Positions 5,787-56,558 of a DNA stretch of 64,000 bases are shown in pieces (positions within the stretch are counted from its first letter, which is position 1; each line of letters opens with the position of its first letter). Source of the DNA: Methanothrix thermoacetophila PT (GTDB taxonomy: Archaea > Halobacteriota > Methanosarcinia > Methanotrichales > Methanotrichaceae). A program made the position numbers and the translations under genes. Under the pieces are notes generated by a model. It saw only the letters and a list, made by a program, of their open reading frames with translations. It did no database searches and had not been told where the DNA came from. The stretch spans positions 1,488,001-1,552,000 of the forward strand of contig NC_008553.1 of NCBI RefSeq assembly GCF_000014945.1. The letters are read 5' to 3'.

Positions 5787-8612
5787 ATGCACTTTCAGAT
5801 CCTGGATGCAAATTACGTCTACGACATGAGCGGCTATCCTGTGGTACAGCTGTTTGGCATCAGAGATAATGGGGATAGCATCATCTGTCGCGTCTCGGGA
5901 TTCAGGCCGTATTTTTACGCAAGCGCTCATGATATCACCAGTGCAGCGGAAGCTGTCGAATCCATGGACCTCGATGTGGAGATCGTCGAGCGATACGAGC
6001 CCATCGGGTACCAGTCGAAGCCAATAAAGATGCTGAGGATAATCGCGAAGGACCCGAAGTCTGTCAGGGAGATAAGGGACAGGGTGAGAGAGATTCCCTC
6101 TGTGAGGGCAGTCTACGAGACCGACATCCTGTTCAAGAACAGGTTTCTCATTGATACAGGTCTCGGCGGCATGGCGTGGGTTAAAGTCCTGGATGTTGAG
6201 AGAGATTCGACCTCAGCGAAGGAGTCGAGGGATGGCCTTTCGTGGTATGGGCTCGCAAATTACAGAGAGGTTGAGAGAGATTCGACCTCAGCGAAGGAGT
6301 CGAGGGTGCTCGAAGGATGCGAGATGCGCGAAAGGCGCCGGTTTATCGTTGATGTGCCTGTGGAGAAGCTGGCGCCGGAGGATCTGGAGAGCACTGCGCC
6401 CCTCAGGTTCATGTCCTTCGATATCGAATGTCTCCCACAGAATGGGGAGATGCCGAGGCCGGAGAGCTCCCCTGTGATACTGATAAGTATGGCGTTTCAT
6501 CCCCCTTACCACGGGATGAGCGATCTCGTTCTCGTGGGGAGAGAACTCGAATGTGATAGGCCGGATGTTGAGGGGTGTGCAGACGAGAGAGCCCTTATCT
6601 CCAGATTTGTGTCCGTGATCGATGATTACGATCCCGACATAATCGCGGGCTACAACTCGAACGAGTTCGACATTCCATATCTAAGAGAGCGTGCATCCAG
6701 GCTCGGCATCGAGATGAATGTGGGTCGTGACGGAAGCACGTGGCTCATCAGGAGCATGGGCAGCAACAAAAACGTCGCTGTGACAGGCCGGGTTGTTGTT
6801 GACCTGCTTCCGATCATCAGGTCCTCATTCAGCCTGAAGCAGTACACTCTGAGAAATGCTGCCATGGAGCTGATCGGGGAGGAGAAGCGAGATATGGACC
6901 CTGCCAGGATGGAATCGATCTGGCTTGGGGGAGATGGGCTGGCCGATCTAATACGCTACTCGAGGCGGGATGCTGTGCTTGTGATGCAGCTCCTCCTCCG
7001 CCTGAGGCTGATGGATAAATACATAGCGCTGGCGAGGGTGAGCGGATCGCTGCTCCAGGACATAGTCAACGGCGGCCAGAGCGGCATGGTGGAAAATCTC
7101 ATTCTCAGAAGGTTCCGATCGCATAAGAGAGTCCTCCCGCCGAAGCCAGACTCGGAGGAGTCGGGTGAGCGGTTCACGGATGCAGATGAGCTTAAGGGTG
7201 GTGCGGTGCTCCCCCCGGTGAAGGGCCTTGTGGAGAATGTGGTCATCTTGGACTACAAATCGCTCTACCCCACGATAATGATGGCCCACAACCTCTGCTA
7301 CTCAACGGTGGTCACAAAGGAAAGACCTCCAGAGGTTGTTAAATCGCCATCCGGCGGGTATTTCGCATCTCCCTCTGTCTGCAAGGGGATCGTGCCGGAG
7401 ATACTGAGGGAGCTGCTGGAGAAGAGGACGGAGACGAAGATGCTCATGAAGAGCGCAGGAGAGGACGAGCGCGCATTTCTCGATGCAAAGCAGTACGCGC
7501 TCAAGATCCTGCTGAACAGCTTCTACGGGTACTCCGGATACGCAAGGGCGAGGCTGTACAGTCTGACTCTGGCGAACGCTGTCACAAGCTTCGGGAGACA
7601 CAACATACTGAGGACAAAGGAGATGATCGAGGAGATCGGCTCAGTCTACATTGTTGACGGGAAAGCTCTGCTTCCCGAGGAGACTTCCGTCTCCTCCAAT
7701 CCGAAACCCCCCGACACAATTGAACTTAATTCCGCCGGAAGACGCTACGACCTCTCTGTTGTCTACGGTGATACAGACAGCGTCTTCGTGAGGATATCAT
7801 CAGGTTACAGCATCACCCCCGAGGATGCGGAGCTGATAGGAAGAAAGATCGCTGAGACGATCACATCGAAGCTCCCTAAGCCGATGGAGCTCGTATTCGA
7901 GGCGTTTGCCAGGCGCGCGATATTCCTGGCGAAGAAAAGGTATGCCCTTTGGCTCTTCGAAAGAGTTTCGACGCAGTCGAAACCTCTCGACGGAGTCGAG
8001 GGATCTTCGAAGACCCCATCCGAAGGAAGTGGGATCATATGGAGGGACAGGATAAAGGTCAGGGGCATGGAGACCGTGCGGCGGGACTGGTGCGACCTCA
8101 CATCAAAGACCCTGAGGAGATGCCTGGAGCTGATTCTGAAGGAAGGCAGGGTGGATGATGCAGTTCAGCACGTGAGGGACGTGATCCAGCGGCTAAGGGA
8201 TATGGACATCAGGCGGGACAGAGAGCTCCTTGATGATCTTGTGCTCACAAGGCGATTCACAAAGGATCCATCCTCATACAGGAACAAGCAGCCACACATC
8301 CAGCTAGTCGAGAAGATGAGAAGGCGCGGCGGAAGGGTCCCCGGGGTGGGAGACCGGGTCCCGTTCATAATAGTCAAGGGAGGCAAAAAGACGCTCTTCG
8401 TCGACAGGGCTGAGGATCCGGAGTATGCGGTGGAGAACAACCTTCCAATAGATACAGAATACTATATTGAGAAGCAGCTTCTTCCGCCTGTCCTCAGGCT
8501 CTTCATGCCGTTTGATGTGGACAGAGAGAGCCTTCTCCAGTGCAGATCTCAGAAGAACCTTCTCCATTTCGATCAGAAGGCTCAGAGGCAGCGAACCCTG
8601 CTGGATTTCTAG
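5787..8612 (+). CDS. polB: Family B replicative DNA polymerase
   Basis: DNA-dependent DNA polymerase with 3'-5' proofreading, 941 aa. The exonuclease site has Exo I (SFDIEC, D near 211), Exo II (IAGYNSNEFDIPY) and Exo III (YSRRDAV). The polymerase site has motif A DYKSLYPTIM (D near 489), motif B KILLNSFYGYSGY and motif C YGDTDS (near 660), followed by KKRYALW. All catalytic acids are intact. It is longer than usual because of three in-frame insertions: two identical 37-bp repeats in the N-terminal domain (each encoding VERDSTSAKESR) and a palindromic insert near residues 724-742 in the palm/thumb region. ATG 5787 is chosen because MHFQILDANYVYD matches the usual family start. Confidence 0.97.
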   Translation: MHFQILDANYVYDMSGYPVVQLFGIRDNGDSIICRVSGFRPYFYASAHDITSAAEAVESMDLDVEIVERYEPIGYQSKPIKMLRIIAKDPKSVREIRDRVREIPSVRAVYETDILFKNRFLIDTGLGGMAWVKVLDVERDSTSAKESRDGLSWYGLANYREVERDSTSAKESRVLEGCEMRERRRFIVDVPVEKLAPEDLESTAPLRFMSFDIECLPQNGEMPRPESSPVILISMAFHPPYHGMSDLVLVGRELECDRPDVEGCADERALISRFVSVIDDYDPDIIAGYNSNEFDIPYLRERASRLGIEMNVGRDGSTWLIRSMGSNKNVAVTGRVVVDLLPIIRSSFSLKQYTLRNAAMELIGEEKRDMDPARMESIWLGGDGLADLIRYSRRDAVLVMQLLLRLRLMDKYIALARVSGSLLQDIVNGGQSGMVENLILRRFRSHKRVLPPKPDSEESGERFTDADELKGGAVLPPVKGLVENVVILDYKSLYPTIMMAHNLCYSTVVTKERPPEVVKSPSGGYFASPSVCKGIVPEILRELLEKRTETKMLMKSAGEDERAFLDAKQYALKILLNSFYGYSGYARARLYSLTLANAVTSFGRHNILRTKEMIEEIGSVYIVDGKALLPEETSVSSNPKPPDTIELNSAGRRYDLSVVYGDTDSVFVRISSGYSITPEDAELIGRKIAETITSKLPKPMELVFEAFARRAIFLAKKRYALWLFERVSTQSKPLDGVEGSSKTPSEGSGIIWRDRIKVRGMETVRRDWCDLTSKTLRRCLELILKEGRVDDAVQHVRDVIQRLRDMDIRRDRELLDDLVLTRRFTKDPSSYRNKQPHIQLVEKMRRRGGRVPGVGDRVPFIIVKGGKKTLFVDRAEDPEYAVENNLPIDTEYYIEKQLLPPVLRLFMPFDVDRESLLQCRSQKNLLHFDQKAQRQRTLLDF
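6195..6306 (+). repeat. Two in-frame 37-bp repeats inside polB
   Basis: Two identical 37-bp copies at 6195-6231 and 6270-6306, 75 bp apart and therefore in the same frame, each encoding VERDSTSAKESR. Each contains TTCGACCTC...GAGTCGAGGG, an imperfect inverted repeat related to the palindromes at 7957-8013 and 56305-56390. They interrupt the N-terminal domain between GLGGMAWVK and RRRFIVDVP. Confidence 0.85.
7957..8013 (+). repeat. In-frame palindromic insert inside polB
   Basis: Contains GTTTCGAC-gca-GTCGAAAC and, directly after it, a second palindrome around CTCGACGGAGTCGAG. It encodes ERVSTQSKPLDGVEGSS between the conserved KKRYALW and DRIKVRGMETVRR blocks. The reading frame is kept open. 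Confidence 0.8.
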
Positions 8613-32002: not shown

Positions 32003-32665
32003 TCATCTGGATATCTTCTTGTGGCAGAACCACCAGTCGTAGCAGTCGTACATACTCAGCCGTTCCTTTGCGCTCTTCTCATCTGAGGGTGGTGGTATGA
32101 TGACCTCATCGCCTATGAGATCGTTATTGGGCCAGTTCGCCGGAGTTGCCACCTTGTTCTTGTCAACAACCTGGAGAGCCTCCACGACCCTGAGGATCTC
32201 GTCTATATTCCTGCCAACCTCCTGAGGATAATATAGAATCAGCCTTATTATTCCGCTCGGATCCACCACGAATACAGCTCTCACAGTGTTTGAACCCTTT
32301 CCCGGATGGATCATGCCGAGCAGATCGGCAACCTCTCCTGTATCTGCTATTATCGGGAACTTTATCTCCACCCCCATCTTCTCTCTGATCCATTCGGTCC
32401 ACTTCATGTGGGAGAAGATCTGATCGACTGAGAGGCCGATGAGCTCGCAGTTGAGCTTCTTGAAGTCCTCCCTGCGCTTCTGGAACGCTATGAACTCCGT
32501 GGTGCATACGGGCGTGAAGTCTGCAGGGTGGCTGAACAGAACAAACCACTTGCCTGCGAGATCGTCTGGCAGAGTTATCGGACCGTGTGTGGTCCTCACT
32601 TCCATTCTTGGAAGCCTATCCCCAAGGAGAGGCATTCCCTCATCCATATCGGCTGTGCAGCTCAT
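32003..32665 (-). CDS. Peroxiredoxin (Prx6-type)
   Basis: Thiol peroxidase that reduces hydrogen peroxide and alkyl peroxides, 220 aa. The peroxidatic Cys54 lies in [12 protein letters not shown]. The C-terminal arm [16 protein letters not shown] and the two late cysteines (208 and 214 in YDCYDWWFC) are typical of archaeal Prx6-like enzymes that form a disulfide within the arm. Single gene on the minus strand. It fits oxidative-stress defence in an anaerobe. Confidence 0.95.
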
Positions 32666-33202: not shown

Positions 33203-33511
33203 TCACTTTGGCTTCAGCTTTCCCTCCTCTTCGAGCTGTTTTTTCACCTTCGCCCAGATATGCTCCCGCTTGTAGATCTCCCTGATGGGCTTTATATCCG
33301 GGAACGATATCGCCTCTCCCATGCAGAGATTCGCGCACGTATTGCAGCCAACTATGCATTGATTCGGCCTTGCGACCACAGGCCCATCCTCTGTCCAGTC
33401 GTAGACGTTCATGCCACAGTTCATGCACATCCCGCACTTCAGGCACTTTTCGCGATCTATGGTGGGATGCCAGGTTATCTTCTCTCTCGGATAGCCAACA
33501 AGCCATGCCAT
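33203..33511 (-). CDS. Small ferredoxin-type iron-sulfur protein
   Basis: 102-aa electron carrier with two cysteine clusters, CLKCGMCMNCG near residue 23 and CIVGCNTCANLC near 52, enough for two [4Fe-4S] clusters, although the spacing differs from classical ferredoxins. The C-terminal 30 residues are basic and helical. The start has GGTGGAAGC just upstream. It is divergent from the TauE/SafE gene, and a near-identical 25-bp site lies upstream of each, so the two may be co-regulated, perhaps by a sulfur or redox signal. Confidence 0.85.
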   Translation of the reverse strand: MAWLVGYPREKITWHPTIDREKCLKCGMCMNCGMNVYDWTEDGPVVARPNQCIVGCNTCANLCMGEAISFPDIKPIREIYKREHIWAKVKKQLEEEGKLKPK

Positions 33512-33529
33512 GCTTCCACCAAAGTTAAA

Positions 33530-33554
33530 TCGATATTTTTCGATTTAAATCTTT
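33530..33554 (-). promoter_or_regulatory. Operator-like site upstream of the ferredoxin gene
   Basis: 25-bp AT-rich site containing TCGATTTAAATCTTT and an inner inverted repeat ATCGATATTTTTCGAT. Read in reverse complement, it matches 33706-33730 at 23 of 25 bases. TTTAAAT inside it lies about 30 nt before the start codon and could be the TATA box. Confidence 0.6.
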
Positions 33555-33705
33555 CGAGGAATAAAACATATTAATTTTCATTGTTAAAAATTTTTTGTTA
33601 ACCAAACCCCCCGACCACAAAATTATCGCATCTCTGCACAGCCAAAAATGAGAGTTCGAGTAACGGTGTTAATAATAACATTGTGAATTTATACTCTTGA
33701 CATGC

Positions 33706-33730
33706 AAAGATTTAAATCGATAAAAATCGA
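33706..33730 (+). promoter_or_regulatory. Operator-like site upstream of the TauE/SafE gene
   Basis: AAAGATTTAAATCGAT followed by AAAAATCGA; the inverted partner of 33530-33554. TTTAAAT here lies about 85 nt before the ATG, leaving a leader of roughly 60 nt with a GGAGG ribosome site. Confidence 0.6.
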
Positions 33731-33799
33731 TCCATAGGAACGTGGCCTGTGAGTCACACATGGCAGTGGCCCTGACGCCACTGTCCGGAGGGATGTGAT

Positions 33800-34702
33800 A
33801 TGAATGGAAGATTCTGGCAGGTATATAGGCCGATAATCGTACTTCTGATTGTTATAGTGGCACTCGCGATCTGGTCATACCTTTCTGGAGGGGATCAGGT
33901 GAGCGGTGCGCCGCTGCTGACCCCTCTGAGAGGCATATTGCTGATCGCCGTCGGCCTGGCGGCTGGCTTCCTTGGAGGGTTGATCGGAACTGGCGGATGC
34001 AGCATAATGCTCCCAGTGATACACTTCTGGATGGGCTATTCAGCGCCCATCGCGATCGGCACGACGATCTTTGCCGTCATCTTCACCGCCATCTCCGGGG
34101 GGTACGGGCACCTCATAAGAAAGAATCTGGACAGAAGAGCGACGCTCTGGCTTGCGGGCGGTGGTATTCTCGGCGTGATCTTCGGATCATGGCTTTTCAC
34201 CATTCTGGTCGAGCACATAGATCTACTCCAGCTGATTCTCGGATTAGCATTTCTGCTGCCCGCAATAAGGATGATCTACGAGGGCATCGGCCGCTCCAAG
34301 CCCAAGCAGGAGGGCGATACAATCCCAGGCGGAAGCAGCGGCTTCGCGGTCTTTGGATTTGCGATTGGCGTTCTGACCGGAATAGTGGGACTTGGCGGCG
34401 GATATGCACTCGTCCCGGGGCTGATCTACCTCTTCGGCGCACCTGTGTACATCACCATGGGGACATCCCTGGCGGTCATGATACCAATGGCGGTTGTGGC
34501 AGGCGGCATAAAGCTCGTCCAGGGGTTTGTCGCGCTCACCACCGCGCTAATCCTCGCAGCCGGAACCATAGTGGGAGCGCAGATCGGGGCAGCGGTCATC
34601 AAGAGGTTCAGGCCGAACACGCTCAAGCTGATATTCGGCATATACTTCCTCTATGTATCGCTGAAGTTCATAGCGGCATACTTCGGAATAGCGATATGGT
34701 GA
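33800..34702 (+). CDS. TauE/SafE-family membrane transporter
   Basis: 300-aa membrane protein of the TauE/SafE group, which is linked to export of sulfite, sulfonates or related anions. After an N-terminal anchor helix there are two related halves, each with a glycine-rich turn: AGFLGGLIGTGGCSIMLPV near 55 and GVLTGIVGLGGGYALVPG near 190. About eight to nine helices. GGAGGGATGTGAT precedes the ATG. The substrate is not known. It is divergent from the ferredoxin gene, with a shared operator. Confidence 0.88.
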   Translation: MNGRFWQVYRPIIVLLIVIVALAIWSYLSGGDQVSGAPLLTPLRGILLIAVGLAAGFLGGLIGTGGCSIMLPVIHFWMGYSAPIAIGTTIFAVIFTAISGGYGHLIRKNLDRRATLWLAGGGILGVIFGSWLFTILVEHIDLLQLILGLAFLLPAIRMIYEGIGRSKPKQEGDTIPGGSSGFAVFGFAIGVLTGIVGLGGGYALVPGLIYLFGAPVYITMGTSLAVMIPMAVVAGGIKLVQGFVALTTALILAAGTIVGAQIGAAVIKRFRPNTLKLIFGIYFLYVSLKFIAAYFGIAIW

Positions 34703-55563: not shown

Positions 55564-56558
55564 TGTACTCCAGAGAGGTTGCCAGAAGGGTATTTCTGGA
55601 GGAGCTCAGAAGATCTGATCTCTCTTTCCGAGAAGGAGATGACTCGCAGTATGCACCGCAGTATCTCCTGACGCCGACAGGCGCCAGATGCAATCGGGTT
55701 TTTGTCGTTGGGACGCTGATAGACAGGGATGACATCGGCGAGGAGGTCGAGTACTGGCGCGGGAGGCTGGCGGATCCGACTGGCAGTATTCTGATCTACG
55801 CAGGACAGTACCAGCCAGAGGCGTCGAGGGTGCTTGCTGAGATTGAGATCCCAGCATTCGTGGCTGTCGTCGGCAAACCCTCAGTCTATGAGACTGAGGA
55901 CGGGAAGAAGATCACATCGATAAGGGCAGAGGCCATACAGAAGGTGGATCTCGACACACGTAACAAGTGGATAATGGAGGCAGCGCGCCGGACGCTCGAG
56001 AGGCTGGAGCTCATGCGCAGCATCGATGTACCACATAACACAGACTTCCAGCCCGGAACCATGTACCACCCTGAGGCAACCACACTCGAGGACTGCAAAA
56101 AGGCCATGGGCCACTACTCCACAAAGATAGAGGAGTACAGGCAGATGGTCCTCACAGCCCTGAACGCCATCAGGAAGGAGCAGGAGATCGAAGAGGTGAC
56201 CCCTGCCATGGCGCCTGTTGAAACTGAGGTGCCTGCGGATGCCGGCAAACCTCTTGGCGAAGAGGAGATGCTGGACTCTCAACTGGCCCCGACTGCGCCA
56301 AGGGGTTCCGACTCTCGACTAAGTCAAGAGGTTTCGACGGAGTCGAAGCTAGTCGAAGCACGTCGAGATGTTTCGAGGGGGTCGATGCACCACCCGGCTC
56401 GCGGAAAGACACCCGTAGAATATGAAAAGGATACCGAAACCGAATTACACCGACCATACACCAGACCGCAGCCCAGCAGGAGAAAACAAACGGGATCTAA
56501 ACGCATAAGCAGCCTGATCGACCTAGATGACGATGATGTCGAGGAGATAGATATCTGA
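55560..56558 (+). CDS. RPA-associated OB-fold protein (COG3390-like)
   Basis: 332-aa partner of RPA encoded next to it in many euryarchaea. The N-terminal OB fold (NRVFVVGTLIDRDDIGEEVE, DPTGSILIYAGQYQPEA) is followed by helices and a long, probably disordered C-terminal tail (from about 215). The tail contains in-frame palindromic repeats and ends in an acidic IDLDDDDVEEIDI. Operon with rpa; the proteins probably form a complex on single-stranded DNA. Confidence 0.9.
   Translation: MMYSREVARRVFLEELRRSDLSFREGDDSQYAPQYLLTPTGARCNRVFVVGTLIDRDDIGEEVEYWRGRLADPTGSILIYAGQYQPEASRVLAEIEIPAFVAVVGKPSVYETEDGKKITSIRAEAIQKVDLDTRNKWIMEAARRTLERLELMRSIDVPHNTDFQPGTMYHPEATTLEDCKKAMGHYSTKIEEYRQMVLTALNAIRKEQEIEEVTPAMAPVETEVPADAGKPLGEEEMLDSQLAPTAPRGSDSRLSQEVSTESKLVEARRDVSRGSMHHPARGKTPVEYEKDTETELHRPYTRPQPSRRKQTGSKRISSLIDLDDDDVEEIDI
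56305..56390 (+). repeat. In-frame palindromic repeats in RPA partner gene
   Basis: Contains TTCGACGGAGTCGAA plus related GACTCTCGACTAAGTC and AGTCGAAGCACGTCGAGA. The core is the palindrome also inserted in polB (7957-8013). It encodes SDSRLSQEVSTESKLVEARR in the disordered tail. Confidence 0.75.

Follow-up and report, generated by a model that had tools for sequence, protein, structure and literature searches.

Two near-identical sites located between the divergent genes of a small ferredoxin and a TauE/SafE exporter in Methanothrix are very probably operators of an ArsR-family repressor controlling an arsenite/soft-metal detoxification regulon, with the ArsR of an arsR-rhodanese-acr3 operon in the same genome as the most likely regulator. 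The window, i.e., the whole stretch of 64,000 nucleotides analyzed here, covers positions 1488001-1552000 of the 1,879,471-bp genome (G000). At the level of sequence comparison, the reading is carried by an operator shared between promoters, its fixed place after the TATA box, its conservation, a spacing bias upstream of arsR and, in other genomes, linkage between TauE and arsR or arsP.

Paired sites at the divergent promoters

Within the window, positions 33203..33511 (minus strand) encode a ferredoxin-like protein of 102 aa with 4Fe-4S cysteine motifs (Pfam Fer4_9, E=1.4e-5, slightly under the curated cut-off), and positions 33800..34702 (plus strand) a TauE/SafE family membrane exporter of 300 aa (PF01925, E=1.2e-45). 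The left site, upstream of ferredoxin, reads TCGATATTTTTCGATTTAAATCTTT on the plus strand (33530-33554), and the right site, upstream of TauE, reads TCGATTTTTATCGATTTAAATCTTT on the minus strand (33730-33706). As described at these coordinates in an earlier, sequence-only reading of this DNA, the two sites are identical in 23 of 25 positions and both overlap BRE/TATA-like elements. A 26-mer, AAAGATTTAAATCGAWAAAWATCGAT, is present in both promoters, in each case reading in the direction of its own gene.

Both sites consist of a BRE/TATA-like element running directly into a 16-bp dyad, ATCGA-N6-TCGAT, and TATA plus dyad is a better description of the common unit than an arbitrary 25-mer. In the ferredoxin promoter, the element CGAAAGATTTAAA (33544..33556, minus strand) is composed of CGAAAG-ATTTAAAT, with CGAAA and TTTAAA kept in all congeners, and the predicted operator ATCGAAAAATATCGAT (33529..33544, minus strand), of the form ATCRA-N6-TYGAT, is found directly 3' of this TATA box. 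The TauE promoter carries the corresponding element CAAAGATTTAAA (33705..33716, plus strand), composed of GCAAAG-ATTTAAAT in the same orientation relative to its own gene, directly followed by the predicted operator ATCGATAAAAATCGAT (33716..33731, plus strand). Both operator predictions draw on the unique 26-mer, a position weight matrix (PWM) and conservation, that of ferredoxin also on the sequence of the element itself. In archaeal promoters the TATA box is centred ~26-27 bp before the transcription start; the dyad would thus fall between TATA box and transcription start, which is a usual place for an archaeal repressor.

A core 16-bp PWM trained only on other promoters ranked the two sites first and second of the entire 64 kb with 21.3 and 19.5 bits (the ferredoxin dyad being second), followed by 15.9 bits at third place. 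The strict dyad had no further occurrence in the window, and for this reason the nearby peroxiredoxin gene (32003-32665) was placed outside the regulon set. Searching the window for the core 15-mer TCGATTTAAATCTTT alone, allowing 3 mismatches, gave 2 matches vs 0.98 expected, which is not significant. Repeated GTCGA/TTTCGACGGAGTCGA-like motifs form short clusters at 7960-8020 and 56330-56400 of the window.

Conservation of the predicted operators

The ferredoxin/TauE pair is present in four of five congeners, with identities of 90-95% for ferredoxin and 94-96% for TauE, the exception being G043, which is devoid of close orthologues of both. According to the sequence-only reading, a single regulator serves both genes, a proposal that would fall if the sites were missing at the orthologous pair. 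The dyads are retained in all four pair-bearing congeners and the TauE dyad also in another genus, lending the proposal strong support. In a comparison of five genomes, GCAAAGATTTAAATCGA-NAAANATYGAT at TauE hardly varies, its GCAAAGATTTAAATCGA portion not at all, and TATA and dyad are both preserved at the ferredoxin site, where the core shows few changes; a large part of the sequence separating the two promoters has diverged. Among congeners, C/T variation affects the distal half of the ferredoxin dyad, and G045 has one degenerate half-site. The ferredoxin gene of this genome (L081:8663-8963) is split into two frames with a break at residue 69-70, due to either a frameshift or an assembly error.

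On the TauE side the dyad is kept in seven of seven close orthologues, with one base being degenerate in the two from another genus (G016 and G019, 81% identity). In these two genomes, ATCAG-N6-TTGAT stands immediately after the TATA box, the neighboring genes differ and the ferredoxin gene is located elsewhere, so the site follows the gene and not its neighborhood. Tandem repeats occupy the TauE promoter region in both genomes: in G016 (L069, about 7440-7560) a 22-bp unit with CAATTGTTAAT is present five times, and in G019 (L084:4120-4215) a 28-bp unit that contains a half-site and TATA is present three times. TauE orthologues outside Methanotrichaceae have promoters without the dyad, though arsR or arsP is adjacent in several of them, which indicates that the operator sequence is family-specific.

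A second conserved element, the tandem TAACGGTGTTA / TAACATTGTGA at 33661..33686 (plus strand), occurs upstream of the TauE TATA box only. Its conservation in five genomes is about equal to that of the dyad, with the rest of the inter-promoter DNA not being conserved, and it may be the site of a second factor. Written as one block, this element reads TAACANTGTTAATGATAACAGTGTGA. Within the TauE leader, hairpins showed almost no covariation, and no Rfam family was matched at gathering score.

A probable scattered regulon and its candidate repressor

A relaxed genome search returned a match immediately upstream of the best ArsR-family gene. In G000, TATA followed by ATCRA-N6-TYGAT was found at three further promoters, namely in front of an arsR-rhodanese-acr3-HTH/4Fe-4S operon (G000:1394926-1398193, L149), of an operon encoding a 96-aa small protein and an ArsP_1 permease, and of a gene for the uncharacterised DUF169 (COG2043; L107:1999 / G000:1326479). 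The latter is unlinked to the pair in G000 and adjoins the ferredoxin gene in G019 and G032. The full 26-mer had no third copy in the genome with up to 3 mismatches allowed, the control also being zero. At the three further promoters the sites are conserved in congeners, with differing spacers and with C/T or A/G at the degenerate positions. A 24-site sequence model, whose training set includes the five G000 sites, gave exactly five strong matches in this genome (E 2e-7 to 3e-5; next E=0.2), and it found the permease-operon sites of G046 and G042, both of which were outside the training set. A full TATA plus dyad model trained without the ferredoxin and TauE sites recognized the former weakly (E=0.79 genome-wide) and missed the latter, because their TATA boxes are ~2 bp closer to the dyad. 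A weaker conserved dyad was seen ~100 bp upstream of the gene for a 190-aa exported protein in five congeners (L133, L134, L135, L139, L178), with weak model matches (E 0.005-0.06 where listed); this protein is a possible sixth regulon member.

The arsR promoter carries the dyad in all six genus genomes, including G043 without TauE and ferredoxin. To evaluate its specificity, other spacer lengths were used as controls, since a reversed-pattern control was too lenient (nearly always 0). The six genomes contain 109 dyads with a 6-bp spacer vs 43 with a 7-bp spacer. In 141 kb around ferredoxin/TauE orthologues of other genera, the strict dyad was counted 11 times at spacer 6 and 0-4 times at other spacers. 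Upstream of 24 arsR orthologues from other genera (27 kb), 16 strict dyads were detected at spacing 6 and 0-2 at any one of the other spacings between 2 and 13; many of the dyads stand directly after TTATAT. This concentration ties the operator to this ArsR. Counting one-base relaxed forms, 14 of the 24 distant loci have at least one site; the remaining 10 showed no dyad in the upstream stretch examined (up to 1.2 kb). ArsRs with dyad-bearing promoters share the same recognition-helix stretch, TSHHLSIL, from which the other strong ArsR of G000 deviates; the latter has no dyad at its own locus. Counting against this assignment, several arsR paralogues in other genera and several other HTH genes exist.

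The repressor candidate (G000:1397801-1398193) belongs to the ArsR/SmtB HTH family (PF01022, E=7e-18; NF033788, 98.7 bits vs a cut-off of 55). As expected for an ArsR regulon, inverted-repeat operators overlap the core promoter at five promoters, among them the regulator's own, and putative metal(loid)-binding cysteines are in place, with CVC being invariant and the DPC cysteine occurring in all orthologues. The third gene of the operon supplies an arsenite efflux pump, ACR3; its full frame has 354 aa, of which a 129-aa piece matches TIGR00832 (E=1e-51, under the full-length cut-off). Among the best PDB matches of the ArsR are CadC, a cadmium efflux accessory protein, and Lmo1102. The CVC motif is similar to the alpha3 site of R773 ArsR, where As(III) is bound by Cys32/34/37 (PMC12607644). 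ACR3 in the operon favours arsenite as inducer, and rhodanese and TauE leave room for reactive sulfur. CVC-type ArsR proteins sense Cd, Pb, and Zn too, so arsenite is not proven as the inducer. Also encoded in the operon is a 269-aa protein that combines an HTH with a 4Fe-4S motif of the CxxC type and may be a second, redox-type regulator.

Gene neighborhoods provide a further line of evidence. Outside the genus, ferredoxin (72-86% identity) and TauE are not paired. In several genomes of other genera, the ferredoxin is encoded near rhodanese, DGC, DUF169, ArsR, ArsP-like permease, and LMW-phosphatase genes. TauE orthologues of Methanoculleus and Methanospirillaceae (65-68%) are found within ~3 kb of arsR, arsP, SaoT-like or DGC genes; the thioredoxin genes near TauE or ferredoxin in relatives are those which we take to be SaoT-like. 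In a Bathyarchaeota locus, TauE has a ferredoxin homologue and a protein related to the HTH/4Fe-4S protein as neighbors. Shared operator and gene neighborhood, being two independent lines, thus place TauE with arsR/arsP.

From these patterns we infer a mechanism of repression rather than activation. An ArsR dimer would bind the 16-bp ATCRA-N6-TYGAT dyad abutting the downstream edge of the BRE/TATA element, thereby obstructing TFB/RNA polymerase at the two divergent promoters. The putative inducer, arsenite or a comparable thiophilic toxicant, would bind the ArsR cysteines (CVC and the conserved DPC), causing the protein to leave the DNA. Its release would turn on ferredoxin, TauE, arsR-rhodanese-acr3, the ArsP_1 permease operon and DUF169 together. 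The presumed roles and substrates of the first two genes are a more tentative matter: TauE and ferredoxin might constitute an undescribed branch of arsenic/soft-metal detoxification in methanogens under a new type of archaeal ArsR operator, e.g., exporting thioarsenic or thiol/sulfur species with electrons supplied by the ferredoxin.

Alternatives and comparison with known systems

The sequence-only reading had considered a sulfur or redox regulon. The genes behind the other operator promoters (arsR-rhodanese-acr3, ArsP_1, DUF169) point to an ArsR-type metalloid/soft-metal regulon instead, and a sulfur component is retained in rhodanese and TauE. Rhodanese in the arsR operon together with TauE in the regulon resembles sulfide-detoxification operons, and the ArsR-family protein could accordingly be a persulfide or sulfite sensor like BigR or SqrR, with the regulon handling reactive sulfur and not arsenic. 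In Acinetobacter, the sulfide response involves both TauE and BigR, an ArsR-family repressor, which are encoded in separate operons (PMC7315123). BigR is indeed a weak family match of our regulator, but its 43.9 bits vs a cut-off of 155 place it outside the BigR family, and its alpha3-type CVC motif, like that of the As(III)-binding R773 ArsR (PMC12607644), as well as ACR3 in the operon and the ArsP_1 permease in the regulon, count against a sulfur sensor, which we regard as unlikely. Still less probable is a different regulator on the dyad, e.g., the 269-aa HTH/4Fe-4S protein (CRECGEQSC) as a redox switch. It is encoded in the arsR operon across the genus and has a homologue adjoining TauE in a Bathyarchaeota genome, but the dyad follows arsR across genera, and G031 (an incomplete assembly) has arsR with a perfect TATA-dyad and no close copy of the protein. 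Two sites that overlap AT-rich, alike BRE/TATA elements and share an exact 26-mer unique to the pair could also stem from a strong core promoter of a common type, or from an inverted duplication of promoter DNA in the past, with no dedicated regulator. This is hardly credible, as the dyad lies mostly outside the TATA box, has a spacer of strictly 6 bp, is found again at unlinked promoters whose TATA boxes and spacers differ, and survives where the flanks do not.

In Methanothrix, which is a major acetate-consuming methanogen, control by the ArsR of the arsR-rhodanese-acr3 operon, as proposed here, comprises one regulator, one defined 16-bp operator and five promoters and is ready for experiment. 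With it, two vaguely annotated genes, those of the small ferredoxin and the TauE/SafE exporter, would be assigned to metalloid/soft-metal stress. If true, TauE/SafE export would be connected with the handling of arsenic in habitats that are anaerobic and sulfidic, and a concrete example would be available of an archaeal ArsR repressor that acts from a TATA-proximal position. In the literature searched, nothing relevant was found on ArsR with TauE in methanogens, on ArsR in Methanothrix, or on ATCAA/TTGAT half-sites.

MsvR, the methanogen redox regulator, is likewise a distant ArsR-type HTH protein of a methanogen, but only its HTH part matches, and with 36.2 bits vs a cut-off of 220 the regulator was rejected as an MsvR. 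Selenocysteine-assisted organometal (SAO) gene sets of anaerobes share a related permease (SaoE, E=3e-28), a TsoR-like ArsR match, and SaoT-like thioredoxin and DGC genes near TauE or ferredoxin in relatives; the family scores were, however, under curated cut-offs where tested. Sulfide/persulfide regulons of the BigR/SqrR and CstR type resemble the present set in having a dedicated repressor (ArsR-family in BigR and SqrR), a TauE-like exporter and rhodanese, whereas here no persulfide dioxygenase or SQR was seen and ACR3 is found instead. With ArsR/SmtB ars operons (arsR-acr3 and relatives), the set has in common a CVC ArsR, an operator at the regulator's own promoter, ACR3 in the operon and an ArsP-type permease in the regulon. 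It differs in its operator: ATCRA-N6-TYGAT directly follows an archaeal TATA box and is not matched by TATATAACGATTTGCTTATATA, the AseR site of B. subtilis (PMC12607644). The set would be a further ArsR regulon, with an archaeal operator and unusual members. It is also scattered over the genome, and we found no described ars regulon that includes a TauE/SafE exporter, a ferredoxin or DUF169.
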